DNA of 47,229 bases from Thermococcus sp. (lineage in GTDB: Archaea; Methanobacteriota_B; Thermococci; Thermococcales; Thermococcaceae). The number at the start of each line of letters is the position of its first letter. Position 1 is the first letter of the stretch. The stretch covers positions 1 to 47,229 of the forward strand of contig NZ_WANV01000032.1 in the NCBI RefSeq assembly GCF_015521605.1. Direction: 5' to 3'. The notes beneath the pieces are model-generated. The model made no database searches. It had not been told where the DNA came from and was given only the letters and a program-made list of their open reading frames with translations. The position numbers and the translations under genes were made by a program. Shown in pieces: positions 15,015 through 35,210 of the stretch.

Positions 15015-15017
15015 GGA

Positions 15018-16496: not shown

Positions 16497-16506
16497 GGAT
16501 ACCACC

Positions 16507-17625
<1,119 letters not shown>

Positions 17626-17634
17626 AAAATCACC

Positions 17635-18654: not shown

Positions 18655-18656
18655 AC

Positions 18657-19904
18657 TTACCCCTCCTCCCCAGAAAATGAGAGGAGGAGGTCTAAATACC
18701 TTTCCAGGTGCTTGGTGATGAGGAAGTTCTCCCTTACCCTTTCCCTGGCGCCGATGCCAAGCCTCTCAGCCTCCTCTGGATGCTTCAGCAGATAGAGGGT
18801 CTTCTCAACCGCGTCCTCCACGCCTTTCACGAGGAAGCCGGTCTCGCCGTCAACCACCTGGAACCTGATACCTCCAACGGCCCTGCCAACCACTGGCTTG
18901 CCCTTCCACATGGCCTCCGTGACCGTCAGTCCAAATCCCTCCCTGATGGACATCTGCAGGACCACGTCACTCGCCCGCTGGAAGGCGTTGACCTCCCTGG
19001 CGTGGACTCCCGTCAGGTTCGTCAGGACTTTCACGTCATAGTCTTCCCCAATCTTCCTCAGAGTTTTCTCGAAGTAGACCCAGCCCTCTGGGTCGTCGGC
19101 CGCCATGACTCCGACGAGGAGCAGCTGAACCTCCGGGATCTTCTCCTTAACCCGCTTGTAAACGTCAATAACGTCAAACACGCCCTTCCAGGGGTCGAAG
19201 CGGGCGACTTGGGTTATAATCGGCCTGTCGGGGTCAACGTCGAACCTTTCGAGGGTTCTGAGAACTTCCGACTCGCTCAGCTCCATGTTCTTCTCGCTCA
19301 GCGGGTCGATGGAGGGGGGCATGATGATGGTTTTCTCCGGGTTCAAATCCGGCTGGACGTATTCTGGGAGGTGGAAGATGTACCTGTCGTATCTCTGCAC
19401 GTACTTCCTCAAGAACGCCCAGAATTCTCTGTTAGGGTCGCTCAGGTCGATGTGACACCGCCAAATCCAGGGCTGTTTTTTCTCGTAGAAGTCTATGAGG
19501 GCTGCCGGCTGCGGGTCGTGGATAAGGACGTAGTCGAATTCTGTCAAGTCCGCTTTTTGAGCGTTTTCCTCATTGGTTTTGAGGTAGAGTTCCTTCATTT
19601 CCTCGGTGAGTTTGAGGTTTTTGTTGCCTTGGAGGGCGTTGTGGAAGCTTTTGGTGACGTTGAAGAACTCGTCGCTTCCCTCGATGACCCACCACTCCGC
19701 TCTTATTCCGACGTCGTTCATGAGGGGCACGAGGTTGTGGAGTATTTCCGCGACACCGCCGCCGTAGGCGGTTGAGTTGACGTGCACGAACTTGGCTCCC
19801 AAGAGCTTTTCTGCCTTCTCTATGATCTTCGAGACTGCGTCTTCTCCGGCAACGGAAGAATAGTCCTCAATCCTCTTCTGGGGCAGTTTCTTAACTCGGA
19901 ACAT
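18657..19904 (-). CDS. treT: Trehalose glycosyltransferring synthase TreT
   Basis: This 415-residue GT4-family retaining glycosyltransferase reversibly makes trehalose from NDP-glucose and glucose. It matches P. horikoshii/T. litoralis TreT, with FVHVNSTAYGGGVAEILHNLVPLM, EWWVIEG, IHDPQPAALIDFYE, WRCHIDLSDPNREFW and the GT4 C-terminal EGFGLTVTEAMWKGKPVVGRAVGGI (the EX7E region). The frame is open 21 codons further upstream, but AAGGAGGAG precedes the ATG at 19904 and the upstream stretch covers the operator, so 19904 is chosen. It is the first gene of the operon, just downstream of a TrmB-type palindrome. Confidence 0.93.
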   Translation of the reverse strand: MFRVKKLPQKRIEDYSSVAGEDAVSKIIEKAEKLLGAKFVHVNSTAYGGGVAEILHNLVPLMNDVGIRAEWWVIEGSDEFFNVTKSFHNALQGNKNLKLTEEMKELYLKTNEENAQKADLTEFDYVLIHDPQPAALIDFYEKKQPWIWRCHIDLSDPNREFWAFLRKYVQRYDRYIFHLPEYVQPDLNPEKTIIMPPSIDPLSEKNMELSESEVLRTLERFDVDPDRPIITQVARFDPWKGVFDVIDVYKRVKEKIPEVQLLLVGVMAADDPEGWVYFEKTLRKIGEDYDVKVLTNLTGVHAREVNAFQRASDVVLQMSIREGFGLTVTEAMWKGKPVVGRAVGGIRFQVVDGETGFLVKGVEDAVEKTLYLLKHPEEAERLGIGARERVRENFLITKHLERYLDLLLSFSGEEG

Positions 19905-19922
19905 ACGGATACTCCTCCTTTG

Positions 19923-19937
19923 TATACTTTTAGTATA
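19923..19937. promoter_or_regulatory. TrmB-type operator at the treT promoter
   Basis: TATACTTTTAGTATA is a 6-3-6 palindrome matching the TACT-N3-AGTA core reported for TrmB sites. The treT TATA box lies at 19966-19977 on the minus strand, so the site covers roughly +8 to +22 of the transcript. This is a repressing position. Confidence 0.75.
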
Positions 19938-19965
19938 TGAATGTCCGGCAAATGTTTGGTTATCC

Positions 19966-19977
19966 ACATATAAAAAG
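19966..19977 (-). promoter_or_regulatory. treT operon promoter
   Basis: Minus-strand CTTTTTATATGT is the only good TATA box between treT and the upstream gene on this strand. Transcription should begin near 19945. Confidence 0.55.
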
Positions 19978-20035
19978 TTTTTTGAAATATGTCCTGGATT
20001 TTAGTGGACGACTTGTAAATAAAGTTGGCATTTCC

Positions 20036-20079
20036 CATTGTTTATCTAGATATTCTCCAAAATTTTTTGGGAAACAATG
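20036..20079. repeat. Inverted repeat in the treT/SBP intergenic region
   Basis: CATTGTTT (20036-20043) is repeated inverted as AAACAATG (20072-20079). TTTCCC (20031-20036) also pairs with GGGAAA (20069-20074). It lies midway between the two TrmB-type operators in AT-rich DNA. A regulatory role is only a guess. Confidence 0.35.
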
Positions 20080-20109
20080 AACATAAATTAGCAGGGGCTT
20101 TCCGAAAAA

Positions 20110-20117
20110 TATAAATA
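20110..20117 (+). promoter_or_regulatory. Promoter of the SBP-permease operon (first sugar locus)
   Basis: TCCGAAAAA (BRE) precedes TATAAATA. Transcription should start near 20138, and GAGGTG lies before the ATG at 20167. The downstream end of the TATA box overlaps the operator at 20116. Confidence 0.7.
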
Positions 20118-20130
20118 TACTAAAAGTATA
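20116..20130. promoter_or_regulatory. TrmB-type operator at the SBP promoter
   Basis: TATACTAAAAGTATA is the exact reverse complement of the site at 19923-19937. It overlaps the end of the TATA box and the region before the transcription start, so a bound repressor would block TFB/polymerase. Confidence 0.75.
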
Positions 20131-20166
20131 CAGCCCTAGTGAACAGCCTTGGTGAGGTGTCTATCT

Positions 20167-21480
20167 ATGAGGTTTCATGCCAAAAGGTTTGCATTGCTTT
20201 TGAGCGTGCTGTTGTTAGCCGCCTTTGTTTCGGGATGCATCTCCGGAGGGGGAACGTCCCCCACGCAGACAACCTCCAGTCCCGGACAGACGACCACTCA
20301 GGAACAGGTTGAGATAGTCGTCTATGGTCAGTGGGGTGGAGTTGAGGGTGAGAACTTCCAAAATGCCCTGAAAGTTTACGAGCAGGAGCACCCGAACGTT
20401 AAGATAAAGTACGTGGTTCAGTCCAAGCTCAGGGATGCCGTTCTCACGGAGCTCGCCACCGGTTCACCAGGTTTTGACATAGCGATTCTTCCATGGCCGG
20501 CGCTCATTACCGAGCTCGGTCAGAAGAACCAGCTTGAGCCCATGAATTCCGTCGTTGACGCTTATAAAGGCGACATTATGGAGAACCTACTTGAACCTGT
20601 GAAGGTTGGGGACACCTACTATGCCGTTCCCATAAAGGCCTGGGCGAAGCCCGGAATATGGTACAACGTCCACGACTTCGAGAAGTACAACCTGACCCCA
20701 CCTAAGACCCTCGATGACCTTAAAGCCGTCTGTAAGGTCTTTGAGCAGAATGGGATCCAGCCCATGGCCAGCGGAGCAGCCGACAAGTGGCCTCTTAGTG
20801 ATATCTTCGAGGCGGTTCTTATAAGGGTTGGCGGTCCTCAGCTTCACAACGACCTCATGACCCACAAGGTCAAGTGGACCGACCCGCAGGTTCTTGAGGC
20901 CTTCAAGGTTCTCAGCGACCTCCTCAAGGAGGGCTGCTACGGTGACCCCAAGGTTGCCATCGGTGAGAAATGGGAGGTTCAGGTTACCAGGCTCGGCCAG
21001 GGAGAGGTTGCCATGTACTTCATGGGCAACTGGATCAACCTGATGCTTCAGAACCAGGGATACCAGCCCGGCACCGACTATGACCTGATTCCGTTCCCCG
21101 TCATCAACCCCAACGCAGACTTTGCCATCGTCGCCGGTGGTGACTGGGTTATCATACCCAAGGGGGCCCCGCACAAGGATGCCGCCTTTGAGCTCGCCAA
21201 GTGGCTCGCCGGTCCAGAGTACCAGAAGATAATGGTCGAGCAGAAGGGCTACCTCGCCCCCAACCTTCAGGTTCCCAAGAGCGCCTACGACCCGGTTGAC
21301 GCGAAGATAATAGACATGATGGCCAAGTACACCGTGGTTCCGGACCTCGACGATAACGCTCCATCAGGATTCCAGCCGATAATCTGGGACAAGCTCTTCG
21401 AGCTCTGGGCCAACCCGGACAACTACCAGCAGATAGCCCAGGAGCTTGAACAGTACGCAGAACAGTACTACGGCTCATGA
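20167..21480 (+). CDS. Sugar ABC transporter substrate-binding lipoprotein
   Basis: This 437-residue solute-binding protein is secreted by a lipoprotein signal (MRFHAKRFALLLSVLLLAAFVSGC; lipid on the Cys near residue 24), followed by a Gly/Ser/Thr linker. The mature domain is of the family 1 extracellular type (VYGQWGGVEGENFQNALKVYEQEHPNVKIKY ... FDIAILPWPALITELGQ ... GGDWVIIPKGAPHKDAAFELAKWLAGPEYQKIM). It lacks obvious likeness to T. litoralis MalE as I remember it and is more like alpha-glucoside (AglE-type) binders. The frame opens 18 nt earlier at TTG, but GAGGTG fits the ATG at 20167. Confidence 0.92.
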   Translation: MRFHAKRFALLLSVLLLAAFVSGCISGGGTSPTQTTSSPGQTTTQEQVEIVVYGQWGGVEGENFQNALKVYEQEHPNVKIKYVVQSKLRDAVLTELATGSPGFDIAILPWPALITELGQKNQLEPMNSVVDAYKGDIMENLLEPVKVGDTYYAVPIKAWAKPGIWYNVHDFEKYNLTPPKTLDDLKAVCKVFEQNGIQPMASGAADKWPLSDIFEAVLIRVGGPQLHNDLMTHKVKWTDPQVLEAFKVLSDLLKEGCYGDPKVAIGEKWEVQVTRLGQGEVAMYFMGNWINLMLQNQGYQPGTDYDLIPFPVINPNADFAIVAGGDWVIIPKGAPHKDAAFELAKWLAGPEYQKIMVEQKGYLAPNLQVPKSAYDPVDAKIIDMMAKYTVVPDLDDNAPSGFQPIIWDKLFELWANPDNYQQIAQELEQYAEQYYGS

Positions 21481-21490
21481 GGTGCCTGAG

Positions 21491-22378
21491 ATGGGCGGAA
21501 GGAGGGACTGGCTCAGCAAGGATTTCCTGATCCTGATGATGCCCGCCTTCATCCTCCTTTTAGTTTTTATACTCTATCCGATTTTCAACACGTTCTACCT
21601 GGGGTTCACCAAGTGGGACGGCTTCACCCAGCCCCAGTTCGTTGGACTCGATAACTACCGAACCATGATGGGTGACCCGCTCTTCTGGACGTCGGTGAAG
21701 AACAACATATTCATATTCATCGTTTTCCTGCCCTTTGTGACCATGCTCGGCCTTGGTTTTGCGCTCCTCCTCCACAACAGCGCCGTTGTGGGGCGCAACC
21801 TGCTCAGGGGCTTCGTTATGCTCGGAATGGTGATGCCCCTTACCGTCGTAGGTATCGTCTGGATGCTGCTCCTGGACCCCAACGCGGGTATCGTCAACCA
21901 CGTTCTGAGCGTCTTTGGGATTGAGCCCAGGGCATGGATTCAGGACCCCAGCACGGCGATATACTTCGTTATAATAGGCTCCCTGTGGGCGTGGCAGGGC
22001 TTCTCGACCACCGTGTTCCTGGCTGGACTGGAGGGGCTCGACGTTGAGGTTCTTGAGGCATCGGTTATTGACGGTGCAAACCCCTGGCAGCGCTTCAGAT
22101 ACGTCATACTGCCCCTGCTGAAGCCCGCATTAATAGTCGTCGTCACGATGAGCTCCATCTACATACTCAAGGTCTTCGACCTCGTTTACGTGCTCTCCGG
22201 TGGCGAATCCGTGCCGATGTACCTCTCGGTGCTGGCCTACATGGTGTACTACGAGATATTCCGCATGTTCAAGTGGGGCTACGCGGCCGCGATAGCGACG
22301 TTGCTGACCGTTGCAGTGTTCCTGTTCTCCATAGGGATGCTGAAGAGGATGATAAGTGAAAGGGGAGTGGGCTCATGA
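21491..22378 (+). CDS. Sugar ABC transporter permease (MalF-like)
   Basis: This 295-residue membrane protein has six hydrophobic segments and the CUT1 EAA loop EASVIDGANPWQRFRYVILPLLKP (about 205-228), which docks to the MalK-type ATPase. The frame overlaps the SBP gene upstream, but GGTGCCTGAG sets the ATG at 21491, 10 nt after the SBP stop. It forms the channel with the next gene. The ATPase partner is presumably MalK encoded on the other strand, since none lies in this operon. Confidence 0.92.
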   Translation: MGGRRDWLSKDFLILMMPAFILLLVFILYPIFNTFYLGFTKWDGFTQPQFVGLDNYRTMMGDPLFWTSVKNNIFIFIVFLPFVTMLGLGFALLLHNSAVVGRNLLRGFVMLGMVMPLTVVGIVWMLLLDPNAGIVNHVLSVFGIEPRAWIQDPSTAIYFVIIGSLWAWQGFSTTVFLAGLEGLDVEVLEASVIDGANPWQRFRYVILPLLKPALIVVVTMSSIYILKVFDLVYVLSGGESVPMYLSVLAYMVYYEIFRMFKWGYAAAIATLLTVAVFLFSIGMLKRMISERGVGS

Positions 22379-23196
22379 AGGTAAGCACTAGATACAAGGT
22401 CACCATTAATCTCGTGGCTTGGACTATAGGGCTGATGCTCCTCATACCCCTCCTGGGGCTGATAATGACCTCCGTCAGGCCGTTCGACGAGATAGTTAAC
22501 GGCTGGTGGAACCTCAGGAACGCCCACTTTATCATCAACAACTACGTCAGCGTGTGGGACGCTGGCTTCTGGAGGAACATCCTCAACTCCATCCTGATAG
22601 CCACGGTGGCCACGATAGTCCCGATACTCATCGCCGGAATGGCCGCCTACGGCTTTACCTCATTCAGCTTCCCGATAAAGACGATGCTCTTCCTCACCCT
22701 CGTGGCCATCCAGGTCGTTCCGCAGCAGGCAGTCATAGTCCCGCTCCTGAGGCTCTTCCGCGACCTGCACATGTACGACCAGTATTACGGCATAATCCTC
22801 GTTCACACGGCCTTCGCGCTTCCATGGACGATATTCTTCCTCCGCAACTTTTTCATGTCCATTCCCAAGGACTATGAGGAGGCTGCAAGGATAGACGGCC
22901 TCAGTGACGTTGGGATATACTTCAGGGTGATACTACCCATAGCGATGCCAGCAGTCATCAGCGTTGCGGTGGTGCAGTTCATCTTCGTGTGGCAGGACCT
23001 ATTCTTCGCCATAACCCTGCTGAGGCCGGAAAAGTGGCCAGTATCCGCCGGCGTGACTCAGTTCATAAGCCGCTACAACCCCAACTGGGGACAGCTGACG
23101 GCAGCAGGAGTGCTGGCGATAATAGTACCCATAACTGTCTACGTCGTGCTCCAGAAGTACTACATGAGGGGAGTGTCCGGCGGAATCAAGGGCTGA
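22375..23196 (+). CDS. Sugar ABC transporter permease (MalG-like)
   Basis: This 273-residue membrane protein with six hydrophobic segments carries the EAA motif EEAARIDGLSDVGIYFRVILPIAMP (about 165-189). It is the second half of the transmembrane channel. It starts inside the end of the upstream permease gene by an ATGA overlap, a sign of translational coupling. The periplasmic-type loop after the first segment (DEIVNGWWNLRNAHFIINNYVSVW) is normal for this family. Confidence 0.93.
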   Translation: MKVSTRYKVTINLVAWTIGLMLLIPLLGLIMTSVRPFDEIVNGWWNLRNAHFIINNYVSVWDAGFWRNILNSILIATVATIVPILIAGMAAYGFTSFSFPIKTMLFLTLVAIQVVPQQAVIVPLLRLFRDLHMYDQYYGIILVHTAFALPWTIFFLRNFFMSIPKDYEEAARIDGLSDVGIYFRVILPIAMPAVISVAVVQFIFVWQDLFFAITLLRPEKWPVSAGVTQFISRYNPNWGQLTAAGVLAIIVPITVYVVLQKYYMRGVSGGIKG

Positions 23197-23227
23197 GCCC
23201 TTTCAAAACTTTTTTGGAGGGATATGT

Positions 23228-24418
23228 ATGGAGTTCGTCCTCGGTGTCAACTACTGGCCGAGAAGGAAGGCCATGTTCTGGTGGAAGGAGTTTGAGGAGG
23301 ATGAGGTTCGGGAGGAGTTCACGGTAATAAAGGAGCTCAACCTCGATGTCGTGAGGATTTTCCTGCTATGGGAAGACTTCCAGCCGGAACCCGAAAGGGT
23401 CGACGAGAAATCCCTCCGGAACCTGGAGAGGGTCATGGACATAGCGCATGAGCTCGGACTGGGGGTCATGCCGACCTTCTTCATCGGGCACATGAGCGGA
23501 ATAAACTGGCTCCCGGAGTGGACGCTCTCCGAGACCCCTCACCCCCGGTTTCTGACGTACTCAAACGGGAGGGTCGTTGACCTCGGTGCGAGGGACATCT
23601 ACGAGGAGCCTGACCTTTTGAAGGCTGAGGAGCTGCTCCTTCGGACGGTCGGCTCCGAGCTCGACGACCATCCGGCGCTGTACGCGTGGGACATCTCCAA
23701 CGAGATAGACAACGTCAGGATTCCCCGCACTCCCTGGGCCGGGAAAAGATGGGTTCGGTTTGTTTACGAGACGCTGAAGGCCAGTTCCAGCAAGCCGGTA
23801 ACCTTCGGCATCCATCAGGAGGACATCCAGGGGGACAAGCACTTCCGCGTGGGCGATGTCGCCGAGGGAAACGACTTCCTCTGCATGCACGCGTATTCGG
23901 TCTACACCGACTTCACCGATCCCCTTGACCCGTACTTCGTTCCCTTCGCGTGCCTGCTCACGAGGGCACTTGGAGGGAAGGAAGTTCTAATGGAAGAGTT
24001 CGGGATGCCGACGACACCGGAGGAGACCAGAAAGGTACGCTCCGTGACCGGAAAGCACGAGGCCGAGCACTACCTGATAAACGAGGGGGACGCCGCGAGA
24101 TGGCTCGAAGAGACCCTCAAAGCCCTCTACGAGTTCGGAACCCTCGGTGCGTTCTACTGGAACTTCGCCGATTATCACGAGAGCGTATGGGACAGGCCTC
24201 CCCTCGACAGGGCGGTTCATGAGAGGTTCTTTGGCCTCCTGAGGAGCGACGGGAGCCTGAAGCCGACAGCACTTGTGATCAGGGAGTTCAGGAAAAAGAT
24301 GGGCGAACTTAAAAGGAGAAACGTGGAGATAGATGTGCCGGAAGACTACTACTCAGACCCTAAGGGCAACCTTGTGAGGCTGTACAGGGAGTTCAGGAAA
24401 AAGCTCGGCCTTGAGTGA
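23228..24418 (+). CDS. Clan GH-A glycosidase (GH5/beta-mannanase-like), cytoplasmic
   Basis: This 396-residue TIM-barrel hydrolase has the two clan GH-A glutamates: the acid/base in YAWDISNEID (residues about 152-161) and the nucleophile in EVLMEEFGMP. Aromatic-rich segments (GVNYWPRRKAMFWW, FYWNFADYHESVWDRPPLDR) suit sugar binding. There is no signal peptide, so it should cleave imported oligosaccharides inside the cell. The family resembles mannanases/mannosidases; the glycosidic specificity is inferred only. It follows the permease gene by 31 nt with GGAGGG before the ATG. A T6 run (23210-23215) in the gap could attenuate expression. Confidence 0.85.
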   Translation: MEFVLGVNYWPRRKAMFWWKEFEEDEVREEFTVIKELNLDVVRIFLLWEDFQPEPERVDEKSLRNLERVMDIAHELGLGVMPTFFIGHMSGINWLPEWTLSETPHPRFLTYSNGRVVDLGARDIYEEPDLLKAEELLLRTVGSELDDHPALYAWDISNEIDNVRIPRTPWAGKRWVRFVYETLKASSSKPVTFGIHQEDIQGDKHFRVGDVAEGNDFLCMHAYSVYTDFTDPLDPYFVPFACLLTRALGGKEVLMEEFGMPTTPEETRKVRSVTGKHEAEHYLINEGDAARWLEETLKALYEFGTLGAFYWNFADYHESVWDRPPLDRAVHERFFGLLRSDGSLKPTALVIREFRKKMGELKRRNVEIDVPEDYYSDPKGNLVRLYREFRKKLGLE

Positions 24419-24428
24419 GGTGGTTGCC

Positions 24429-25379
24429 GTGATCGTATCCGTTGGGGAAGTGCTCATAGACTTCATAGCCCTCCAGGAGGGAAAGCTGAAGGACGTGAAG
24501 TCCTTCGAGAAGCATCCCGGCGGTGCCCCCGCCAACGTTGCCGTCGGACTCGCGAGGCTCGGCGTTGAGAGCGCGCTGGTAAGCAAGGTCGGTGACGACC
24601 CCTTTGGGGACTTCCTGCTCGAAAGGCTCCGTGACGAGGGTGTGAAGACATACATATCCAGGGACGCCGAAAAACACACCGGTGTCGTCTTCGTCCAGCT
24701 GATCGGCGCCAAGCCGGAGTTCATCCTCTACGACGGCGTTGCCTACTTCAACCTAAAGCCTGAGGACGTGGAGGCGGTCCTTCTTGAGAACGCGGAGGTC
24801 GTTCATTTCGGAACCGTGCTCTTCGCCAGGGAGCCCTCGCGCTCAACGCTCTTCGGAGTTTTAGGGGGACTTAAGGGGAAGGTTCCGCTGAGCTACGACG
24901 TCAACATAAGGCCCGACCTCTGGCGCGGAAGGGAGGAGGAAATGCTGAGGGACATAGAGAGGGCGTTGAAACTGGCCGATATCGTCAAGCTCGGCGACGG
25001 CGAGCTGGAGTACCTCAGAAACAACGGGGTAAGCCTCGATGACTTCGACTTCAAACTGCTCGCGGTAACTCTGGGTGAGAAGGGCAGCGAGCTGACGAGC
25101 GGGGGTGTCAGGATTCACGTGCCGGCCTATAGGGTTGAGCCTCTCGACACCACAGGGGCTGGAGATGCCTTTACAGCCGCCCTCTTGGCTGGCCTGCACT
25201 ACTCGAACCTGCTCGGTGCGGGGACCATTGAGGAGGAACACCTCAGAAAAATCGGCCGTTTCGCAAACCTCATAGCGGCGCTCTCAACGACCCTTAGGGG
25301 TGCCTGGAGCGTTCCAAAAATGGAAGAAGTGGCCCTGATGAGGGAGTTCAGGGAGCTCTACCAGCGCTCCAAGAGGTAG
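24429..25379 (+). CDS. PfkB-family sugar kinase (fructokinase-like)
   Basis: This 316-residue kinase has the PfkB signatures KHPGGAPANVAVGLARLG (N-terminal) and DTTGAGDAFTAALLAGL (C-terminal, catalytic Asp). The segments VGEVLIDFI and YDVNIRPDLW are typical of fructokinases and 2-keto-3-deoxygluconate kinases. Together with the isomerase-like gene of the divergent operon it could turn an aldose into a phosphorylated ketose. A GTG start at 24429 with GAGGTGG is chosen; the frame opens earlier with TTG at 24411, overlapping the upstream gene. Its 3' end overlaps the convergent glycosyltransferase by 22 nt. Confidence 0.9.
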   Translation: MIVSVGEVLIDFIALQEGKLKDVKSFEKHPGGAPANVAVGLARLGVESALVSKVGDDPFGDFLLERLRDEGVKTYISRDAEKHTGVVFVQLIGAKPEFILYDGVAYFNLKPEDVEAVLLENAEVVHFGTVLFAREPSRSTLFGVLGGLKGKVPLSYDVNIRPDLWRGREEEMLRDIERALKLADIVKLGDGELEYLRNNGVSLDDFDFKLLAVTLGEKGSELTSGGVRIHVPAYRVEPLDTTGAGDAFTAALLAGLHYSNLLGAGTIEEEHLRKIGRFANLIAALSTTLRGAWSVPKMEEVALMREFRELYQRSKR

Positions 25380-26500
25380 TCCTTTTCTTCAAGGAATATC
25401 CTTGCCCTCTCCTCTATCAGTTTTTCAGCCTCAAGCGTGCTCATGTCAATCGTCCTCTTGACGAAATCTGCCGTCTTTGCAAAGTACAGCGGCACTAGGG
25501 GCTCGGCCTCGGTTAGGATTCCGTTTTTGTACGCCACCGCTCCGTCGTAGAGGACGTGGCTCCAGAGCCTGTCGTCGAACTCTAAGGTCTTGAGAGCTTC
25601 TTTCACCCCCTTGAGGGTCTCCTCGCTCAGGGCCCTTCTGAGCACTGGCTCATGCTGGGCAAAGAGCTCCTTCGCTCTTATCTCAAGAAGCTCCAGGGTC
25701 ACCTTTACGGGCTCGGGTTCACCTTTCTCAAGCTCCCCAAAGACCGGAACTGGCTCTATTGTTCTCACACCATTCCAGACGTTCTCATACCTCCCCATCA
25801 GCATGAACAGCGTCCCAACGACCTGGTTGAACATGGGGCCTAACGAGGCCGCCGGGTCTTTGGGGTCGTGTATCTTCATTCCCAGGGCCGTCTGGATGAT
25901 TTTGAAGCCCCTCGCTATGGCCGTCGTCGTCAGGAATATGTCCACCCCAAAGCGGGCAACGTGGGTCTTCCAGACATCTTCGTCTTCAAGGTAGACCTCC
26001 ATGAGCCTTCTGCTTATTCCGAAGTCCCCGCCTATCGGCTGCCTGACGTTCTTCCCGTAGAGCGAAGCCGTCATCGGGTAGGCTATGTTGTTGGTTATCG
26101 TGCCGTCCCACTTGTGCCTTATGTACAGCGGTGCCACGAAGTCATAGCCTTCTTCTATGGGCCTGGCGAAGCGGTATATCCACTCCGGCGTTATGCTCCT
26201 CAGGTCGCTGTCAACGAACACTATGGCATCTGCGTCCCTCCCGAGGGCGAACTCCATGAGCTCCTTCATGGCGCTTCCCTTTCCAGGGATGGGCCACCTG
26301 TAGATGAAGCTGTGGACTTCCACCCCATCCGGAACCTTTGTTTTCAGCACTGCATCCCTCGTCCCGTCGGTGCTCCCCCCGTCGGCGTTGACGACGATCC
26401 CACCGCCAAAATATTTTTTCAGCCCCTCTGCAGCCTGTTTCACGACAAAAGAAATTGTTTCCCCGTTGTTGTAACTGGGAATCCCAACGATAACCCTCAT
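25358..26500 (-). CDS. GT-A glycosyltransferase, glucosylglycerate/mannosylglycerate synthase-like
   Basis: This 380-residue GT-A enzyme has the nucleotide-sugar fold at the N-terminus (VGIPSYNNGETISFVVKQA), VVNADGGSTDGT and the metal-binding FVDSDLRS, followed by SITPEWIYRFARPIEEGYDFV and FGVDIFLTTTAIARGF. This layout resembles synthases that put glucose or mannose on (phospho)glycerate (GT81/GT78/GpgS group). The presence of glycerate kinase in the neighbouring operon supports a glycerate acceptor, but this is inference. No membrane segments. GGTGGAGAAG sets the ATG at 26500. It is divergent from the Gfo/Idh operon and shares its operator and TATA region. Confidence 0.75.
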   Translation of the reverse strand: MRVIVGIPSYNNGETISFVVKQAAEGLKKYFGGGIVVNADGGSTDGTRDAVLKTKVPDGVEVHSFIYRWPIPGKGSAMKELMEFALGRDADAIVFVDSDLRSITPEWIYRFARPIEEGYDFVAPLYIRHKWDGTITNNIAYPMTASLYGKNVRQPIGGDFGISRRLMEVYLEDEDVWKTHVARFGVDIFLTTTAIARGFKIIQTALGMKIHDPKDPAASLGPMFNQVVGTLFMLMGRYENVWNGVRTIEPVPVFGELEKGEPEPVKVTLELLEIRAKELFAQHEPVLRRALSEETLKGVKEALKTLEFDDRLWSHVLYDGAVAYKNGILTEAEPLVPLYFAKTADFVKRTIDMSTLEAEKLIEERARIFLEEKDYLLERW

Positions 26501-26522
26501 CTTCTCCACCCTCATAAGTTAC

Positions 26523-26539
26523 AACCATTTAAAGTGGTT
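26523..26539. promoter_or_regulatory. Palindromic operator (site A) of the second sugar locus
   Basis: AACCATTTAAAGTGGTT is a 7-3-7 palindrome with one mismatch and an ACT/ATT-N3-AGT core. Its copy precedes the SBP gene at 28639. It lies 14 nt before the plus-strand TATA box and over the predicted minus-strand start site of the glycosyltransferase gene. Confidence 0.7.
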
Positions 26540-26548
26540 TATTTTGAA

Positions 26549-26564
26549 AAGGGTTATATACCTT
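26549..26564. promoter_or_regulatory. Bidirectional TATA between glycosyltransferase and Gfo/Idh genes
   Basis: GGGTTATATACC reads as a TATA box on both strands. On the plus strand GAAAAGG lies before it; on the minus strand CGAAAGG lies before it. Both genes can thus start from the same TBP site. The plus message would start near 26580, almost leaderless for the ATG at 26587. Confidence 0.6.
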
Positions 26565-26586
26565 TCGACCGTACTGGAATCAGGCG

Positions 26587-27600
26587 ATGCCCATGGAGCT
26601 GAGGGTAGGAGTGATAGGCTGTGGAAACATATTCAACCTCGCCCACAAGAGGGCGCTGAGGGGGATAGAGGGGATTAGGGTCGTTGCCTGCATGGATATA
26701 GACGCGGCCAGAGCCAAGGAAGGTGCTAAGGAGCTTGGGGCGAAAGCCTTCACGAGCCTTGATGAGTTTCTTGACATTGACCTCGACGTCGTGGAAATCC
26801 TCACACCAACCTACACCCACGCTGAGCTGGCCCTCGCGGCACTTAAGGCTGGAAAGCACGTCATAGTCGAGAAGCCGATAGCCCTCACCGTCGAAGAGGC
26901 CGAGAAAATGATAAGGACCGCGGAAAAGGAGGGCCTGCACCTTTTCGTTGGCCATGTAAGGCGCTTTGACCTCAGGTGGATTCAGATGAAGGAAGTCATA
27001 AAGAAGCGCAACATCCTTCCCATGCACATCAGAAAGGCCGAAGTCCAGAACCTCCCCTTCCCGAAGGACTACTGGTACTGGGACGAGAACAGGAGCGGCG
27101 GCGTTGCCGTTGACCTGGGGGTTCACGTCACGGATTTCCTGCGCTGGTTTTTCGAGAGCGAGCCGGTGAGCGTTTATGCCGTTGGAAAGTCCATCAAGGA
27201 GGAGGCAAGGGCGAACGGAACGTTCGACCACTTCATGATGATGATAGCGTTCGAGGGAGGGAAGACGGGCATAGCGGAGGTCAGCTGGGCGTATCCGTAC
27301 CCCTCACGCTACGGTGTGTTCTACCACCACGTTGACATCATCGGAAAGAACGGCAGGATACGCTACACCCCTCTGGACACACCGGTGGTCGGCGTTGCCA
27401 AGGCCAACTTTGAGATGCCCCGCTTCTCACCGCTCCTTTCGACCTTCCCGGATGCCTTCGAGAGGGAGTTGAGACACTTCTTTAACTGCATCAAGGGCAG
27501 GGAGGAGCCAGTGGTCACGGCGGAGGACGGCCTGGTCGCGCTGAAGATTGCAGAGATGGCCAAGGAAAGCGCCCGGAAGGGGGAGGTGGTTGAGATATGA
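26587..27600 (+). CDS. Gfo/Idh/MocA-family oxidoreductase 1
   Basis: This 337-residue NAD(P)-dependent dehydrogenase has the Rossmann glycine motif VGVIGCGNIFN, CMDIDAA after strand 2, the family motif HVIVEKPIAL (catalytic Lys) and VAVDLGVHVTDFLRWF, which supplies the Asp/His of the active site. Family members oxidise a sugar or inositol hydroxyl, often at C1 or C3. It is the first gene of the second locus, preceded by site A and a shared TATA box, and overlaps the second oxidoreductase by ATGA. The ATG at 26593 is an alternative start. Confidence 0.92.
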   Translation: MPMELRVGVIGCGNIFNLAHKRALRGIEGIRVVACMDIDAARAKEGAKELGAKAFTSLDEFLDIDLDVVEILTPTYTHAELALAALKAGKHVIVEKPIALTVEEAEKMIRTAEKEGLHLFVGHVRRFDLRWIQMKEVIKKRNILPMHIRKAEVQNLPFPKDYWYWDENRSGGVAVDLGVHVTDFLRWFFESEPVSVYAVGKSIKEEARANGTFDHFMMMIAFEGGKTGIAEVSWAYPYPSRYGVFYHHVDIIGKNGRIRYTPLDTPVVGVAKANFEMPRFSPLLSTFPDAFERELRHFFNCIKGREEPVVTAEDGLVALKIAEMAKESARKGEVVEI

Positions 27601-28610
27601 GGAAGCTCAGCTTCGGAATAATAAGCTACGCCCACCCGCATGCCCTTCGTTTTGCCTCTGTGATTGCGGGGGGCAAGAGAACAAAGCTCGTCGCTATATC
27701 CGGCGACGGCTCGAACTCTGACGTGGCAAGGGCGGAGGCTAAGAAGTACGGGGCGAGGTTCTACAGGAACTACGAGGCCCTCCTGAGGGACGAAAACGTG
27801 GAGGCGGTTTACGTTGCCATAGAGACGTACAGACACAAGGAAATAGCCATCCGGGCAGCTGAGGAGGGCAAGCACATACTCCTTGAGAAGCCCATCGCCC
27901 TGAACCTCAAGGACGCGGATGAGGTGATAAGGGCCGCTAAAAAGGCGGGAGTTAGGCTTATGCTGCCCTTCAACCCGCGCTTTACCGATCCCCTCAGGAA
28001 GGCCAAGGAGATGATTGATGCCGGGGAGATAGGTGCCCTGGAGTACATACAAACGATTTCTGAAAACGTCAAGCCGCCGATATTCCTCCAGGGGCTCGAC
28101 ATGAGCTGGTTCCTGGATGTCAGGAAGTCGGGCGGCGGGGGCTTCATGGACACAGCTCCTCACGGCGTTGACTCCCTCCTCTGGCTCACCGGAGACGTGC
28201 CCAAGAAGGTTTACGCTGACATAGGGAGCAAAATATACGGATTCCCGGTGGACGATATAGGGACGGCCGTCCTTGAGTTCAAGAAGGGTGTTCTGGCGGT
28301 TCTTACCGCGGGCTGGGGCAACCCGAGGGGCTACTCCTACGGCATCGAGATAAAGTACTACCTCGTTGGCAGGGAGGGTTTCCTAGATGTCAGAACCGCA
28401 TATCCGGACTTCACGGTCTATCAGGACAGGGCCGAAAAGATATACTGGGACAGGCCGGACGTCAGGGGGATAGTGAACTCATTCACGGAGGCCGTGCTCA
28501 AAGATCGGGAGATTCCCATAACGGGGGAGGATGCCAAGAAGAATCTTGCCATAATCCTCGCGGCTTACGAATCCTCCCGGAAGGGTAGAACCGTGAAGCC
28601 CAGGCTTTAA
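27597..28610 (+). CDS. Gfo/Idh/MocA-family oxidoreductase 2, with atypical N-terminus
   Basis: This 337-residue paralogue has the family motif HILLEKPIAL and GFMDTAPHGVDSLLWL for substrate binding. At the position of the Rossmann glycine motif it reads LSFGIISYAHPHALRFASV, without GxGxxG. The cofactor may therefore be bound differently, or this may be a partner subunit. It is translationally coupled to oxidoreductase 1 (ATGA overlap), so the two probably act together, as a heteromer or in consecutive steps. No related dehydrogenase lies elsewhere in the window. Substrate unknown. Confidence 0.88.
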   Translation: MRKLSFGIISYAHPHALRFASVIAGGKRTKLVAISGDGSNSDVARAEAKKYGARFYRNYEALLRDENVEAVYVAIETYRHKEIAIRAAEEGKHILLEKPIALNLKDADEVIRAAKKAGVRLMLPFNPRFTDPLRKAKEMIDAGEIGALEYIQTISENVKPPIFLQGLDMSWFLDVRKSGGGGFMDTAPHGVDSLLWLTGDVPKKVYADIGSKIYGFPVDDIGTAVLEFKKGVLAVLTAGWGNPRGYSYGIEIKYYLVGREGFLDVRTAYPDFTVYQDRAEKIYWDRPDVRGIVNSFTEAVLKDREIPITGEDAKKNLAIILAAYESSRKGRTVKPRL

Positions 28611-28638
28611 TCTCAAACTTTTACTTTTGTGTAAATAC

Positions 28639-28655
28639 AACCACTTTCAGTGGTT
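28639..28655. promoter_or_regulatory. Palindromic operator (site B) of the second sugar locus
   Basis: AACCACTTTCAGTGGTT is a perfect 7-3-7 palindrome (AACCACT-N3-AGTGGTT). It ends 13 nt before the TATA box of the SBP operon (TTATATAT, 28669-28676), almost the same distance as site A from its plus-strand TATA box. Confidence 0.75.
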
Positions 28656-28668
28656 TTAAACACAAATC

Positions 28669-28676
28669 TTATATAT
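28669..28676 (+). promoter_or_regulatory. Promoter of the second SBP-transporter operon
   Basis: TTATATAT is the TATA box. The start should be near 28697, giving a leader of about 35 nt with GGGTGATG before the ATG at 28731. Confidence 0.6.
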
Positions 28677-28730: not shown

Positions 28731-30017
28731 ATGAAGAGGTTGTTTGGACTTTTGTTGGCAGGTATTGTGGTTTTCGCAGTGGTGGCCAGCGGCTGTATCT
28801 CCCCCGGAGGGGAGACTAAGGTGACAGTGACGTTTCTGTCAACACAGCTGAACCCGCCAGAGGAGAGGGCCTTCGTTCAGGAAGACCTTCTGAAGGGCTT
28901 TACATCAGAGACGAACATCGAAGTCAACTTCGTCCCCATCTCCTACACGGATATGGTTACGAGGCTTGAGGGCGAGATGCAGACGGGAAAGGTCACCATT
29001 GATGTCATAGGTGACCTTCACGGTGGTATGGACTACATGGCCTCCAAAGGCTGGCTTGAGGACCTGAGCAAGATGCCCAAGCTTGAGGGAAGAACCTTCA
29101 TCAGCACCTTCGAGCAGTACTCATACATCCGCGGCCAGAAGGTCTACGTGCCCTGGATGAGCGCTACCTATGTCATGGTCGTCAACAAGGATGCCTTCAA
29201 GTACCTCCCTGCTGGGCTCACGGAGGATGACGTTATCAAGGGCACGGACAAGTGGACGTACGACGCCCTCCTCCAGTGGGCAAAGAACCTGGAGGAAGCG
29301 ACCGGTCAGCCGCAGCTCGGCTTCCCGGCCGGACCAAATGGACTCTTTGTCAGGTTCCTTCACGGCTATCTCTATCCGAGCTACACCGGTTATCAGGCCA
29401 AGGAATTCGACAGTCCAGAAGCAGTGGAGATGTGGAACTACCTCAAGGAGCTCTGGCCTTACGTTCACCCATCGAGCACCACCTGGGATGCCATGGCAGA
29501 CCCGCTCCTTAAGGGCGAGGTCATGATAGCCTGGGACCACACGGCGAGGATTAAGAACGCCATTGAGACCAAACCTGACCAGTTCGTCGTTGTTCCCGTT
29601 CCACGCGGGCCGAAGGGCAGGGGATTCATCGTCGTCCTTGCGGGCCTTGCCATACCCAAGGGAGCGCCTCATGAGGAGGAGGCCTGGAAGCTCATAGACT
29701 ACCTGACCCAGCCTGACACGCAGGTCAAGGTTCTTGAGAAGACGGGATTCTTCCCGACCGTTGAGGAGGCGAGCGGAAAGCTGCCTGAGGGGCCGCTCAA
29801 GATACTTGCCCAGGGAGTTCAGGCGCAGGCCAGCACCAAGGACGCACTCGTCGTCATGATACCGAACCTTGGAGACAAGGGCGGACAGTTCAAGGAGTAC
29901 TACAAGCAGGCATTCGAGAGGATAGTCCTCAACAACGAGGACCCAGCAACCGTTACCAAGGAGATCAAGCCCGACCTAGTCAAGCTCTTTGAGGACATTG
30001 GTGCGCCAGTGCCGTGA
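28731..30017 (+). CDS. Sugar ABC transporter substrate-binding lipoprotein 2
   Basis: This 428-residue exported binding protein starts with a lipoprotein signal (MKRLFGLLLAGIVVFAVVASGC; lipid on Cys22). The mature part is a family 1 solute-binding protein (VTFLSTQLNPPEERAFVQEDLLKGFTSETNIEVNFVP ... VIGDLHGGMDYMASKGWLEDL ... VLAGLAIPKGAPHEEEAWKLIDYLTQPDTQVKVLEKTGFFPTVEEA). It delivers a ligand to the permeases at 30027 and 30875. It is distinct from the SBP at 20167, so the two loci take up different compounds. Operator site B lies upstream. Confidence 0.93.
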   Translation: MKRLFGLLLAGIVVFAVVASGCISPGGETKVTVTFLSTQLNPPEERAFVQEDLLKGFTSETNIEVNFVPISYTDMVTRLEGEMQTGKVTIDVIGDLHGGMDYMASKGWLEDLSKMPKLEGRTFISTFEQYSYIRGQKVYVPWMSATYVMVVNKDAFKYLPAGLTEDDVIKGTDKWTYDALLQWAKNLEEATGQPQLGFPAGPNGLFVRFLHGYLYPSYTGYQAKEFDSPEAVEMWNYLKELWPYVHPSSTTWDAMADPLLKGEVMIAWDHTARIKNAIETKPDQFVVVPVPRGPKGRGFIVVLAGLAIPKGAPHEEEAWKLIDYLTQPDTQVKVLEKTGFFPTVEEASGKLPEGPLKILAQGVQAQASTKDALVVMIPNLGDKGGQFKEYYKQAFERIVLNNEDPATVTKEIKPDLVKLFEDIGAPVP

Positions 30018-30026
30018 GGGATGGCC

Positions 30027-31717: not shown

Positions 31718-32821
31718 ATGGTTGAGGTCAAACTTGATGGCATAACCAAGAGGTTTGGGAACTTCGAGGCGGTAAAGGATCTCACACTTACGATAAAGGA
31801 CGGGGAGTTTCTCGTCCTCCTCGGACCGAGCGGTTGCGGAAAGACCACAACGCTCAGGATGATCTCTGGCCTTGAGACGCCCACCGAGGGCAGGATATAC
31901 TTTGGGGACAGAGACGTCACGTACCTGCCTCCCAAGGACAGGAACATCTCGATGGTGTTTCAGAGCTACGCCGTCTGGCCGCACATGAAGGTCTTCGACA
32001 ACATAGCCTTTCCCCTAAAAGTGAAGAAGTATCCCGAAGACGAGATAAAACGGCGCGTCAAGTGGGCGGCCGAACTGCTTCAGATAGAGGAGCTCCTCGA
32101 CCGCTACCCGGGACAGCTGAGTGGCGGCCAGAGGCAGCGCGTCGCCGTTGCGAGGGCCATAGTGGTAGAACCCGATGTTCTGCTTATGGATGAGCCGTTA
32201 AGCAACCTCGACGCAAAGCTCAGGGTGGCGATGCGCGCCGAGATAAAGAAGCTCCAGACGAAGCTGAACGTCACGACGATATACGTTACCCACGACCAGG
32301 TTGAGGCAATGACCATGGGAGACAGGATAGCTGTTATGAACCAGGGGAGGCTCCTTCAGGTAGGACCCCCCACGGAGGTTTACCTGAAGCCGAACTCGGT
32401 CTTCGTGGCAACTTTTATCGGCGCACCTGAGATGAACCTGCTGGACGCCAGCCTTGTGGAAAGCGGGGGCATAGTCCTCGAAGGGGACGGCTTCAGGATA
32501 CCCCTGCCCGAGGATTTCAGGGATATACTCCTTGACTACCTTGGGAAGGATGTTCTGGTGGGCATAAGGCCGGAGCACATGACAGTGAAGGGGGTATCCA
32601 CCCTGGAGCACGTGACCAGGAGCGTCGAGATAGACGGAGTCGTCGATTTCATTGAGGCCCTTGGGACGGACACCATAGTGCACGCCAAGGTCGGTGGGAA
32701 CATCATCAAGATAAAGCTGCCCGGACATATACCATTACCCATCGGGGAAAAGATTAAAATAGAGATCGACCTTGACAACCTTCATATCTTCGACAAGGCC
32801 ACTGAAAAAGCGATAATCTGA
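31718..32821 (+). CDS. MalK-like sugar ABC transporter ATPase (second locus)
   Basis: This 367-residue CUT1 ATPase has Walker A GPSGCGKTTT (about 36-45), MVFQSYAVWPHM, LSGGQRQRVAVARA, VLLMDEPLSNLD and VTHDQVEAMTMGDRIAV. The C-terminal OB-type domain (about 240-367) ends HIFDKATEKAII. It is a paralogue of the malK at 16507, but lies in frame with its own SBP and permeases, so this transporter does not need the first ATPase. GAGGTG precedes the ATG, and the gap to the permease is 9 nt. Confidence 0.94.
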   Translation: MVEVKLDGITKRFGNFEAVKDLTLTIKDGEFLVLLGPSGCGKTTTLRMISGLETPTEGRIYFGDRDVTYLPPKDRNISMVFQSYAVWPHMKVFDNIAFPLKVKKYPEDEIKRRVKWAAELLQIEELLDRYPGQLSGGQRQRVAVARAIVVEPDVLLMDEPLSNLDAKLRVAMRAEIKKLQTKLNVTTIYVTHDQVEAMTMGDRIAVMNQGRLLQVGPPTEVYLKPNSVFVATFIGAPEMNLLDASLVESGGIVLEGDGFRIPLPEDFRDILLDYLGKDVLVGIRPEHMTVKGVSTLEHVTRSVEIDGVVDFIEALGTDTIVHAKVGGNIIKIKLPGHIPLPIGEKIKIEIDLDNLHIFDKATEKAII

Positions 32822-32830
32822 GGCCTGCCT

Positions 32831-33844
32831 ATGGAGGAGAAGGAGATAAAGTCCCTGCTCAAGGAGCTCGGCCTGAACGAGTACGAGGTTAGGGCGTACC
32901 TTACCCTCATCAGGAACGGCCCCCTCACGGCGGGGGAACTCGCGACGCTCTCAAAGGTTCCTCAGCCCAGAATATACGACGTGATAAGAACGCTCATGGC
33001 CAAGGGCTTCGTGACAACGAGTCAGGGACGGCCGAAGCAGGTCATTCCCCTCAGTCCCGACAGCGTCATGGATGCCATAAAGAGGCGCTACGATGAAAAG
33101 ATAGAGACTCTCAAGGCCGCCCTGGAGAAGCTCTACACCCCCCGTGGGGAAATCGGAAGCGTCACGGTGGTCAAGAGCAGGATAACCCTGGAGGAATACA
33201 TCAGGCGGGCGATAAAGAACAGCAGGTTTCATCTCAGCATTGCAGTGCCTATGGAGCTCCTCGACAGGCTTAAGGACGACCTCGGCGTGAAGAGGGACTC
33301 CGTGAGGATAAACCTCTTCGTTTACGGCGAGGGTGAGGTGTCCCCCATCGCGACAGAAATCCGTATGCGTGAAGTTCCTGACCCCATAATCATAATTCAG
33401 GACAGGGACATGGGCATATACCTCCCCTACGAGGCGTTAACTGCCGGCAGTTCCCTCCATGGCTACGGGCTGGTCATACACGACAACAACCTCCTCTTCA
33501 TGCTTGACCGCTACTTCTACCATGCCCTCTGGCCAACGGGTAGGGTCGTTTACAGGGAGGAGCGGGCACTCAGGCTCCCGAGGGAGTACATCCACATAAG
33601 GGAGCTTGTTTCAGACCTGCGGCGGTTCAGCATTCAGAATGCTAAGGTTGAGGTTTTTGGCCGCTTCGTTCGTTCGGGAGAACCGGTTCATCTCGTGGGG
33701 AGGATCGTTGAGTTCTACGAGGACGAGGGCAAAGTTATCTCGAACATAACGGTGGAAACTGAAGATGGTGAGAGGCACGTGGTGGGTGGCTGGAACGCCT
33801 CCCTGGAGGACATAGAGGCCGAGCGCATTATCCTCTTTGAGTGA
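32831..33844 (+). CDS. TrmB-family transcriptional regulator, second paralogue
   Basis: This 337-residue regulator has a winged helix (about 5-75: LGLNEYEVRAYLTLIRNGPLTAGELA, recognition helix PQPRIYDVIRTLMAKGF) and a TrmB-type C-terminal ligand domain ending FGRFVRSGEPVHLVGRIVEFYE and GGWNASLEDIE. Architecture equals TrmB at 17635, but the recognition helix differs (PQPRIYDVIRTL against PYNRVYDTIASL), in line with a different palindrome. It is the fifth gene of the SBP operon, so it would control its own transporter through sites A and B. Confidence 0.9.
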   Translation: MEEKEIKSLLKELGLNEYEVRAYLTLIRNGPLTAGELATLSKVPQPRIYDVIRTLMAKGFVTTSQGRPKQVIPLSPDSVMDAIKRRYDEKIETLKAALEKLYTPRGEIGSVTVVKSRITLEEYIRRAIKNSRFHLSIAVPMELLDRLKDDLGVKRDSVRINLFVYGEGEVSPIATEIRMREVPDPIIIIQDRDMGIYLPYEALTAGSSLHGYGLVIHDNNLLFMLDRYFYHALWPTGRVVYREERALRLPREYIHIRELVSDLRRFSIQNAKVEVFGRFVRSGEPVHLVGRIVEFYEDEGKVISNITVETEDGERHVVGGWNASLEDIEAERIILFE

Positions 33845-33866
33845 ACTCTTTTGCAGGGGGAGGGAG

Positions 33867-35210
33867 ATGGACGCCAGAACGGCCGCACTGGACATCATGA
33901 GGGCAGCCATTGAAAGCTCCGATCCCTACCGGGCGGTGAGGAGGGGCATTAACTTCGATGGGAACCGCCTGACAGTCTCTGGTGAGGAATTTCCCCTGTC
34001 CGGGAAGGTCTACCTCCTCGCCTTCGGCAAGGCCGCGTGCTCCATGGCAAGGGCCGTCGCCGACCTCCTCGGGGAGCGCATCGAGGAGGGAGTGATAATC
34101 ACCAAGTACGGCTACGCCGAGAACTGTCCCAGGACGGAAAGACTGAGGATCATCGAGGCCGGCCATCCCGTTCCGGACGAGAACTCCCTTTTGGGTGGAA
34201 AGCTCGGCCTCAAACTGGCCGGAAAGGTTGGAGAGGATGACGTTCTCCTTGTCCTTATCTCAGGCGGCGGTTCTGCGCTCTTCCTCCTCCCCGAGAGAGG
34301 GATAACCCTGGAGGACAAGATCAGGACGAACGAGCTTTTACTCAAAAGCGGTGCCAAAATATACGAGATAAACACCGTGAGAAAGCACATCTCGGCCGTC
34401 AAGGGCGGCAAGCTGGCGAAACGCGTTAGGGGGACTGTGATAAGCCTCATCCTCTCGGACGTCGTGGGCGACCCGCTTGAGGCCATAGCATCGGGCCCGA
34501 CCGTGAAGGACCCCACCACCTTCCGGGACGCCTTCAGAATCCTGGAGCTCTACGGCGTCTGGGAGAAGCTGCCGGAGAGCGTTAAGAGGCACATCGAGCT
34601 GGGACTCAAAGGGAAGGCCGAGGAGACCCTCAAGGAAGACCTCCCAAACGTCCACAACTTCATAGTCGGAAGCGGCAGGATGGCGTGTGAGGCGGCGCTG
34701 GCGAAAGCTAGGGAACTCGGCTACAACGCCCTGCTGCTAACCACGACCCTTGAAGGCGAGGCCAGGGAGGTGGCACTCGCGGTGGGCTCGATAGTCCAGG
34801 AGGTAGCCAGATACGACCGCCCGGTTCCAAAGCCGGCCGTCCTCATAGCCGGCGGCGAGTGGACGGTGACGATTGAAGGAGAAGCCGGCCTCGGCGGGCC
34901 AAACCAGGAGTTCGCCCTGAGCGTTGCCAGGAAGATAGCCGGGCTGAATGCAGTTGTTTTGGCCGTCGATACCGATGGGACGGACGGGCCTACCGATGCA
35001 GCAGGTGGTATCGTCGATGGAAAGACGTTGGAAGAACTTAAGAAAGCTGGAATCGACGTCGAGGAAGCCCTGAAGAGGCACGACGCCTACCGGGCGCTGG
35101 AAAGAGTGGGTGCGCTCCTCAAGACCGGGCCTACCGGGACGAACGTGAACTCGCTGGTGATAGCGGTCATACGAGATCCCGCCACTCTCTCTGGAAATAC
35201 AGAATCATGA
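33867..35210 (+). CDS. Glycerate 2-kinase (type II, MOFRL)
   Basis: This 447-residue cytoplasmic kinase phosphorylates D-glycerate, in archaea to 2-phosphoglycerate, which enters glycolysis above enolase. Typical segments are LLAFGKAACSMARAVADLLG, AGHPVPDENSLLGGK, LLVLISGGGSALFLLP, the GGEWTVTIEGEAGLGGPNQEFALSVA core of the MOFRL domain and AVDTDGTDGPTDAAGGIVDG. GGGGGAGGGAG sets the ATG at 33867. It follows the TrmB paralogue by 22 nt and is the last gene of the second locus, implying that glycerate is a product of the imported compound. Its 3' end overlaps the frameshifted gene on the other strand. Confidence 0.93.
   Translation: MDARTAALDIMRAAIESSDPYRAVRRGINFDGNRLTVSGEEFPLSGKVYLLAFGKAACSMARAVADLLGERIEEGVIITKYGYAENCPRTERLRIIEAGHPVPDENSLLGGKLGLKLAGKVGEDDVLLVLISGGGSALFLLPERGITLEDKIRTNELLLKSGAKIYEINTVRKHISAVKGGKLAKRVRGTVISLILSDVVGDPLEAIASGPTVKDPTTFRDAFRILELYGVWEKLPESVKRHIELGLKGKAEETLKEDLPNVHNFIVGSGRMACEAALAKARELGYNALLLTTTLEGEAREVALAVGSIVQEVARYDRPVPKPAVLIAGGEWTVTIEGEAGLGGPNQEFALSVARKIAGLNAVVLAVDTDGTDGPTDAAGGIVDGKTLEELKKAGIDVEEALKRHDAYRALERVGALLKTGPTGTNVNSLVIAVIRDPATLSGNTES

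Follow-up and report, generated by a model that had tools for sequence, protein, structure and literature searches.

Examination of the window, that is the whole 47,229-nucleotide stretch of Thermococcus sp. DNA that was analysed, revealed two copies of a palindrome set among genes for sugar-related enzymes, an ABC transporter and a regulator of the TrmB family. The features on which the argument rests are as follows.

12251..16505, minus strand: operon of a GH130 phosphorylase, a GDE/MGH1-like glycoside hydrolase and a Fucose_iso_C isomerase; adjoins a third palindrome (site C) in relatives, with no site here
16507..24418: maltose/trehalose cassette (MalK, TrmB, TreT, SBP1, permeases, GH), which replaces the site C promoter
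19923-19937: TrmB-type comparison site, TATACT-TTT-AGTATA
20116-20130: TrmB-type comparison site, TATACT-AAA-AGTATA
24411..25379, plus strand: PfkB sugar kinase, fructokinase-like; site C covers its predicted start in relatives, and here it is joined to the maltose/trehalose operon
25358..26500, minus strand: glycosyltransferase GT, glucosyl-3-phosphoglycerate/mannosylglycerate synthase-like (profile search; start set by conservation)
26523..26539: site A, palindrome AACCATT-TAA-AGTGGTT, AACCATTTAAAGTGGTT, candidate operator (exact match)
26554..26561: TATA box TTATATAC, apparently common to GT (minus) and OxA (plus)
26587..27600, plus strand: OxA, Gfo/Idh/MocA oxidoreductase (profile search)
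27597..28610, plus strand: OxB, Gfo/Idh/MocA oxidoreductase (profile search)
28639..28655: site B, palindrome AACCACT-TTC-AGTGGTT, AACCACTTTCAGTGGTT, candidate operator (exact match)
28669..28676, plus strand: TATA box TTATATAT of the SBP-permease-ATPase-regulator operon
28731..30017, plus strand: ABC sugar-type solute-binding protein (profile search)
30021-30878 and 30875-31708, plus strand: two ABC permeases (the first by profile search, the second by position and size only)
31718..32821, plus strand: ABC ATPase of the UgpC/MalK type (profile search)
32831..33844, plus strand: regulator of the TrmB family, orthologue of T. barophilus TrmBL5, TERMP_01835 (profile search, primer match and orthologues)
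33837..35210, plus strand: glycerate 2-kinase-like GlyK (profile search)

The genes of this pathway probably serve to take up and degrade a glycoside of a sugar, perhaps a hexosylglycerate, as suggested by the glycerate kinase, the MGH1/GDE hydrolase, GH130, the fructokinase-like PfkB and a glycosyltransferase of the GPGS/MGS kind. The hydrolase (13149-15014, minus strand; adjoining site C in relatives) aligns over its full length, with 1248.8 bits, to the solved archaeal amylo-alpha-1,6-glucosidase 7vma, and in view of so close a relative hexosylglycerate is taken as a lead only. Mannosylglycerate breakdown, the first idea, is weakened by the same relative and is kept as one possibility. A search of the PDB sequences with the solute-binding protein returned no relative at E 1e-10.

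The original prediction had placed the two palindromes at 26523-26539 and 28639-28655, with their centres 23 nt (A) and 22 nt (B) before TATA boxes starting at 26554 and 28669, and the sequence agrees on all these points. The box at site A was set by alignment on TTATATAY; TTTGAAAA, the pick of a naive TATA scorer, was replaced. The sites at 19923 and 20116 contain the published TrmB operator consensus TACTN3AGTA (PMC4158304), so that the claim of a common ACT-N3-AGT core spacing with different outer bases is correct. Full TrmB half sites, TACT..AGTA, do not occur at A and B, which read CCAYT..AGTGG and have only this core in common with them; the TGM operator of TrmBL1, TATCACN5GTGATA, is absent from both, in its halves as in its spacing.

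The three bases directly before the palindrome (26520-26522 and 28636-28638) are nearly invariant, being TAC at A and in most B sites. This near invariance is found on one side only, and the operator may thus be asymmetric and longer than 17 bp.

It had also been claimed that site A covers the start of the opposite glycosyltransferase gene. The most probable start codon, chosen by conservation, is the ATG at 26500, 3' of a GGTGGAG ribosome site, rather than 26515. Site A therefore covers the predicted transcription start of GT and leaves its start codon free.

The exact motif AACCAYTNNNARTGGTT (AACCAYT-N3-ARTGGTT) was searched for in a sample of 94 Thermococcaceae genomes, with the reversed pattern as control. 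Fifty sites were found in 30 of the 94 genomes, every one inside the GT/OxA/transporter/regulator cluster, against a single site for the control; random occurrence in coding DNA, which would have spoken against the prediction, is not what the related genomes display. In its own genome (2.03 Mb) the motif matches exactly at A and B only, where simple arithmetic on uniform bases gives a chance expectation of about 0.0007 exact matches for the window and 0.03 for the genome. Allowing one mismatch adds one place in this genome, inside a 393-codon open frame; among the six best other places with up to two mismatches none has the site-TATA arrangement, and five lie in open frames of 164-861 codons. 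With regard to a wider regulon, one-mismatch matches outside the cluster are scattered, about one per genome, and no commoner than those of the reversed control, and hence we claim no regulon members beyond the cluster.

Within the cluster, conservation is high. Site A is kept with at most one mismatch at orthologous loci in five of the six genera sampled, the sixth being without the regulator, so that its presence at such loci, on which the prediction also depended, is confirmed. Site B likewise keeps its place before the transporter operon, with 0-3 mismatches, and when up to three mismatches are allowed essentially every intact locus has A, B or both at the corresponding position. The site columns carry a mean of 1.8-1.9 bits, compared with 0.4-0.5 in the upstream flank.

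The regulator at 32831 has the two domains of its family, with 75.7 bits for the N-terminal TrmB helix-turn-helix domain PF01978 (cut-off 25.6) and 147.9 bits for the C-terminal effector domain PF11495 (cut-off 22.2). It scores below the NCBIfam equivalog cut-offs for TrmBL1 (137.6 against 650 bits), TrmB (89.9 against 600), TrmBL2 (60.7 against 530) and halobacterial TrmB (194.4 against 500). TrmB binds sugar through G320 and E326 and has a Tyr-Asp pair in its recognition helix (PMC4158304). In the regulator a GG...ED stretch aligns with its counterpart in 3qph, so that the Gly/Glu pair of the sugar site is present, and the Tyr-Asp pair is found in all orthologues as PR[IV]YD. The recognition helix, VPQPRIYD, differs from those of TrmB (VPYNRVYD) and TrmBL1 (IPHTRVYD) of the same genome, as had been asserted, and VPQPR[IV]YD is invariant in 42 orthologues.

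An orthologue in genome G086 is 63% identical to the regulator, lies in the same operon and is matched without mismatch by the published RT-qPCR primers for TERMP_01835. The primer match supports G086 being T. barophilus and, together with the common operon, identifies the regulator as the orthologue of the protein named TrmBL5 in PMC10667668, the only paper within the literature searched to use that name. This 2023 paper calls the role of TrmBL5 unclear and reports the operon to be up at 40 MPa (PMC10667668). Maltose changed TERMP_01835 only slightly (PMC10667668), hence the inducer of TrmBL5 is probably not maltose in T. barophilus. A TrmBL4 site, TACTN6AGATA, was proposed upstream of TERMP_01840 at 1,624,822-1,624,836 (PMC10667668); site B (1,624,854-1,624,870, locus L108) precedes this element by about 17 nt. 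The element lies around the TATA box and beyond, and its part past the TATA box lacks conservation across genera.

An orthologue of the regulator is present in 46 of the 94 genomes. The exact motif occurs in 30 of these 46 and in none of the 48 others (Fisher 3e-13, a descriptive value since species are not independent). A sharper comparison is offered by nine genomes, found by searching with GT and OxA, that have the divergent GT/OxA pair and no orthologue of the regulator; eight belong to genus g3, probably Pyrococcus, and the ninth is G025. Their GT/OxA intergenic regions contain no site, the best match having 3-5 mismatches. Site A with at most one mismatch is thus found in all 41 genomes that have the regulator and a locus that could be determined, and in 0 of 9 regulator-less ones (Fisher p 4e-10), counts that are again not independent across species and, with the nine lying mostly in one clade, amount to few independent contrasts. 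Losses agree with this pattern. In G080 the regulator and its neighbours are fragments and the site is gone too, and in G078 the transporter genes and site B were lost together while OxA and site A are still there. Comparison of genomes therefore supports a motif that follows the regulator gene and not the target genes, and it favours the original view of the palindromes as likely sites of the TrmB paralogue at 32831.

It could be argued that TrmB, TrmBL1 or TrmBL4 owns the sites and that the linked TrmBL5 gene is a passenger. In favour of this, the TrmB site has the same ACT-N3-AGT core, and proteins of the TrmB family have been reported to cross-bind on one promoter (PMC4706686). However, genomes without TrmBL5 keep TrmB-family genes (26-37% identity) without having the motif, the GT/OxA pair has no site where TrmBL5 is missing, and the outer bases are unlike TACTN3AGTA. 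Moreover, deletion of trmBL4 in T. barophilus left TERMP_01835 unaffected (PMC10667668). We therefore regard ownership by another family member as quite improbable.

A different element was seen in regulator-less relatives. Five loci, probably of Pyrococcus (L132, L134, L136, L137 and L138), share it around AGTAACTAAA between GT and OxA, in several cases with the palindrome TTTAGTAACTAAA, and it is perhaps the site of another regulator. A separate case is G076 (L118, 5290-10268), where OxA no longer adjoins site A and GT and an insertion of about 2 kb divides OxB, so that the cluster is breaking up there.

Seven relatives (L080, L083, L086, L089, L090, L091 and L093) have a third site, C, which departs from the motif by 0-1 mismatch and lies between PfkB and the divergent operon for the isomerase, the GDE/MGH1-like hydrolase and the GH130 phosphorylase. 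Four others (L081, L085, L087 and L092) have at the same place, upstream of PfkB, a changed palindrome AACAACCAAAAGTTGTT, which suggests a kept but altered operator; it has the symmetric form AACAAC-CAAAA-GTTGTT. The regulator-less G051 has a broken palindrome at the site C position.

Sites A, B and C are arranged alike, the site being followed after 12-16 nt (14-16 nt at A, 12-14 nt at B) by a TATA box, with the better conserved half AGTGGTT facing it. For OxA, the transporter operon and the isomerase operon the site lies upstream of BRE and TATA. For GT and PfkB it lies beyond the TATA box, at about 25 nt from the centre of the box, which is the expected place of the transcription start. This constancy bears on whether the palindromes might function in a transcript, as a terminator hairpin or as an element of the leader, instead of binding a protein. 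Their seven-pair arms and three-base loop would suit a hairpin, as would the place of site B, 28 nt 3' of the OxB stop with a T run after it. Site A, on the other hand, lies between divergent gene starts and not at a 3' end, A, B and C keep one distance and one side relative to the TATA box irrespective of gene direction, the TAC next to one arm is fixed too although it is outside the stem, and presence follows the regulator gene. A role in RNA is so improbable on grounds of position and co-occurrence with the regulator that we set it aside.

The TATA box at site A is flanked by BRE-like runs of A on both strands, at about 26547-26553 on the plus strand and 26562-26567 on the minus strand. When 32 distinct sequences were aligned on the TATA box, the three minus-side columns TTT (AAA on the minus strand) were invariant, at 2.0 bits each, against 0.3-0.8 bits for the same columns at B, where no gene runs the other way. 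A BRE on both strands of one TATA box, the mark of a bidirectional promoter, is thus conserved at A and not at B. Promoters of this BRE-TATA-BRE type, with starts about 50 nt apart, are known from P. furiosus and were shown in vitro for PF1918 (PMC6640164). GT and OxA appear, by this comparison, to use one and the same TATA box. With a BRE on both sides, site A lies at once upstream of the oxidoreductase promoter and over the predicted GT start, which, at 25 nt from the TATA centre, falls on the centre of site A.

Taken together, these observations make it very likely that A and B are operators of the TrmBL5 orthologue at 32831, under a model of upstream activation and downstream repression. 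A TrmBL5 dimer would bind the palindrome through the ACT-N3-AGT core and the new outer CC/GG bases. Activation would be expected for the operons of the oxidoreductases, of the transporter with regulator and glycerate kinase and, in relatives, of the isomerase, hydrolase and phosphorylase, which have the site just upstream of BRE/TATA, the position from which proteins of the TrmB family activate; divergent GT (A) and, in relatives, PfkB (C) have it on the predicted transcription start, the repressing position, and would be repressed. As a single TATA box with a BRE on each side appears to serve both genes at site A, binding there would favour one direction of a two-way promoter, and the simplest account is a bound regulator that closes the GT direction and leaves that of OxA alone, or helps it. 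The comparison establishes the sites, their conservation, their link to the regulator gene and their geometry; binding, both modes of control, the ligand and the sugar that is carried and broken down are inferences. TrmBL1 offers a parallel, since in vitro its sites downstream of the promoter bring about repression and its upstream sites activation (PMC4706686). PfkB on the repressed side, however, fits a purely catabolic grouping poorly.

The regulator might also bind and only repress everywhere, by blocking recruitment of TBP/TFB or polymerase, as TrmB does at malE. TrmB is a pure repressor in the maltose/trehalose system (PMC4158304), and the edge of the sites is just 12-16 nt from the TATA box. 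But TrmB represses over BRE/TATA (PMC4706686), while A and B leave the BRE and TATA of OxA and the transporter free, and of three templates with a TrmBL1 site upstream of BRE, two were activated in vitro (PMC4706686). We hold pure repression to be unlikely and keep to activation from upstream combined with repression from downstream.

In the genome under study site C is absent, and the maltose/trehalose cassette lies exactly between the starts of the isomerase (16505) and PfkB (24411), as a consequence of which the isomerase operon and PfkB now follow TrmB-type promoters. In G071, with a regulator 99% identical, the cassette is absent and site C is present. On a tree of neighbouring proteins from 32 loci the cassette and site C states are scattered; the cassette state of G050 was assumed, its contig ending at PfkB, and we claim no exact number of gains or losses. 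By this distribution it looks like a recurrent replacement of one regulator's promoter by another's.

A broader reading would make TrmBL5 a direction switch that chooses between divergent genes at a symmetric TATA box, with the operator-TATA unit used twice, for GT and the oxidoreductases and for the hydrolase operon and the sugar kinase, and with a mobile TrmB-controlled cassette having repeatedly moved the genes of the second place from TrmBL5 to TrmB control. We put this forward tentatively, as quite possible yet somewhat short of probable.

The regulator belongs to a known family. For TrmBL5, whose operon responds to high hydrostatic pressure by induction in T. barophilus, the predicted sites appear to be the first operator and the first regulon to be given. 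They further suggest that a TrmB-family protein may shift its DNA specificity through the outer half-site bases while keeping the ACT-N3-AGT core. Site A has an unusual promoter architecture that is directly testable, and is a natural test case of whether one bound regulator can steer a single archaeal TATA box in either direction. The evidence for the original interpretation is comparative, and stronger than that prediction had asked for. Site C in relatives, the BRE on either side of the apparently shared TATA box at A and the equation of the regulator with TrmBL5 go beyond what had been predicted.

Several known systems can be set beside this locus. TrmB of the trehalose/maltose operon of Pyrococcus furiosus and Thermococcus litoralis likewise combines helix-turn-helix and sugar-binding domains, an ACT-N3-AGT core and linkage to a sugar ABC transporter. 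It differs in outer bases (TA../..TA, here AACC../..GGTT), in recognition helix (YNRVYD, here QPRIYD) and in having its site over BRE/TATA, where the present sites are upstream of BRE. TrmBL1/Tgr, also a TrmB-family member, is an activator when bound upstream of TATA and a repressor when bound downstream of it, with one reported two-way case on a single divergent region (PF1535-1538 / PF1539), but the motif and half-site spacing of its TGM, TATCACN5GTGATA, are unlike A and B, and its regulon is global, with about 28 promoter regions, in contrast to a local set of two or three sites. T. barophilus TrmBL5 is the same gene in the same transporter cluster (TERMP_01835-01840), for which neither operator nor regulon had been given, TACTN6AGATA having been proposed as a TrmBL4 site instead. 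For TrmBL1 and SurR alike, two-way action on a single divergent region has been reported (PMC4706686), and the principle of two-way control at A thus has precedent; compared with those cases, the new feature is what appears to be a single shared TATA box with a conserved double BRE. The bidirectional promoters of P. furiosus do use one symmetric TATA box for both strands (PMC6640164). Their reverse transcripts are regarded as antisense RNA, for the most part non-functional, whereas here conserved genes run in both directions and one predicted regulator site flanks the TATA box.
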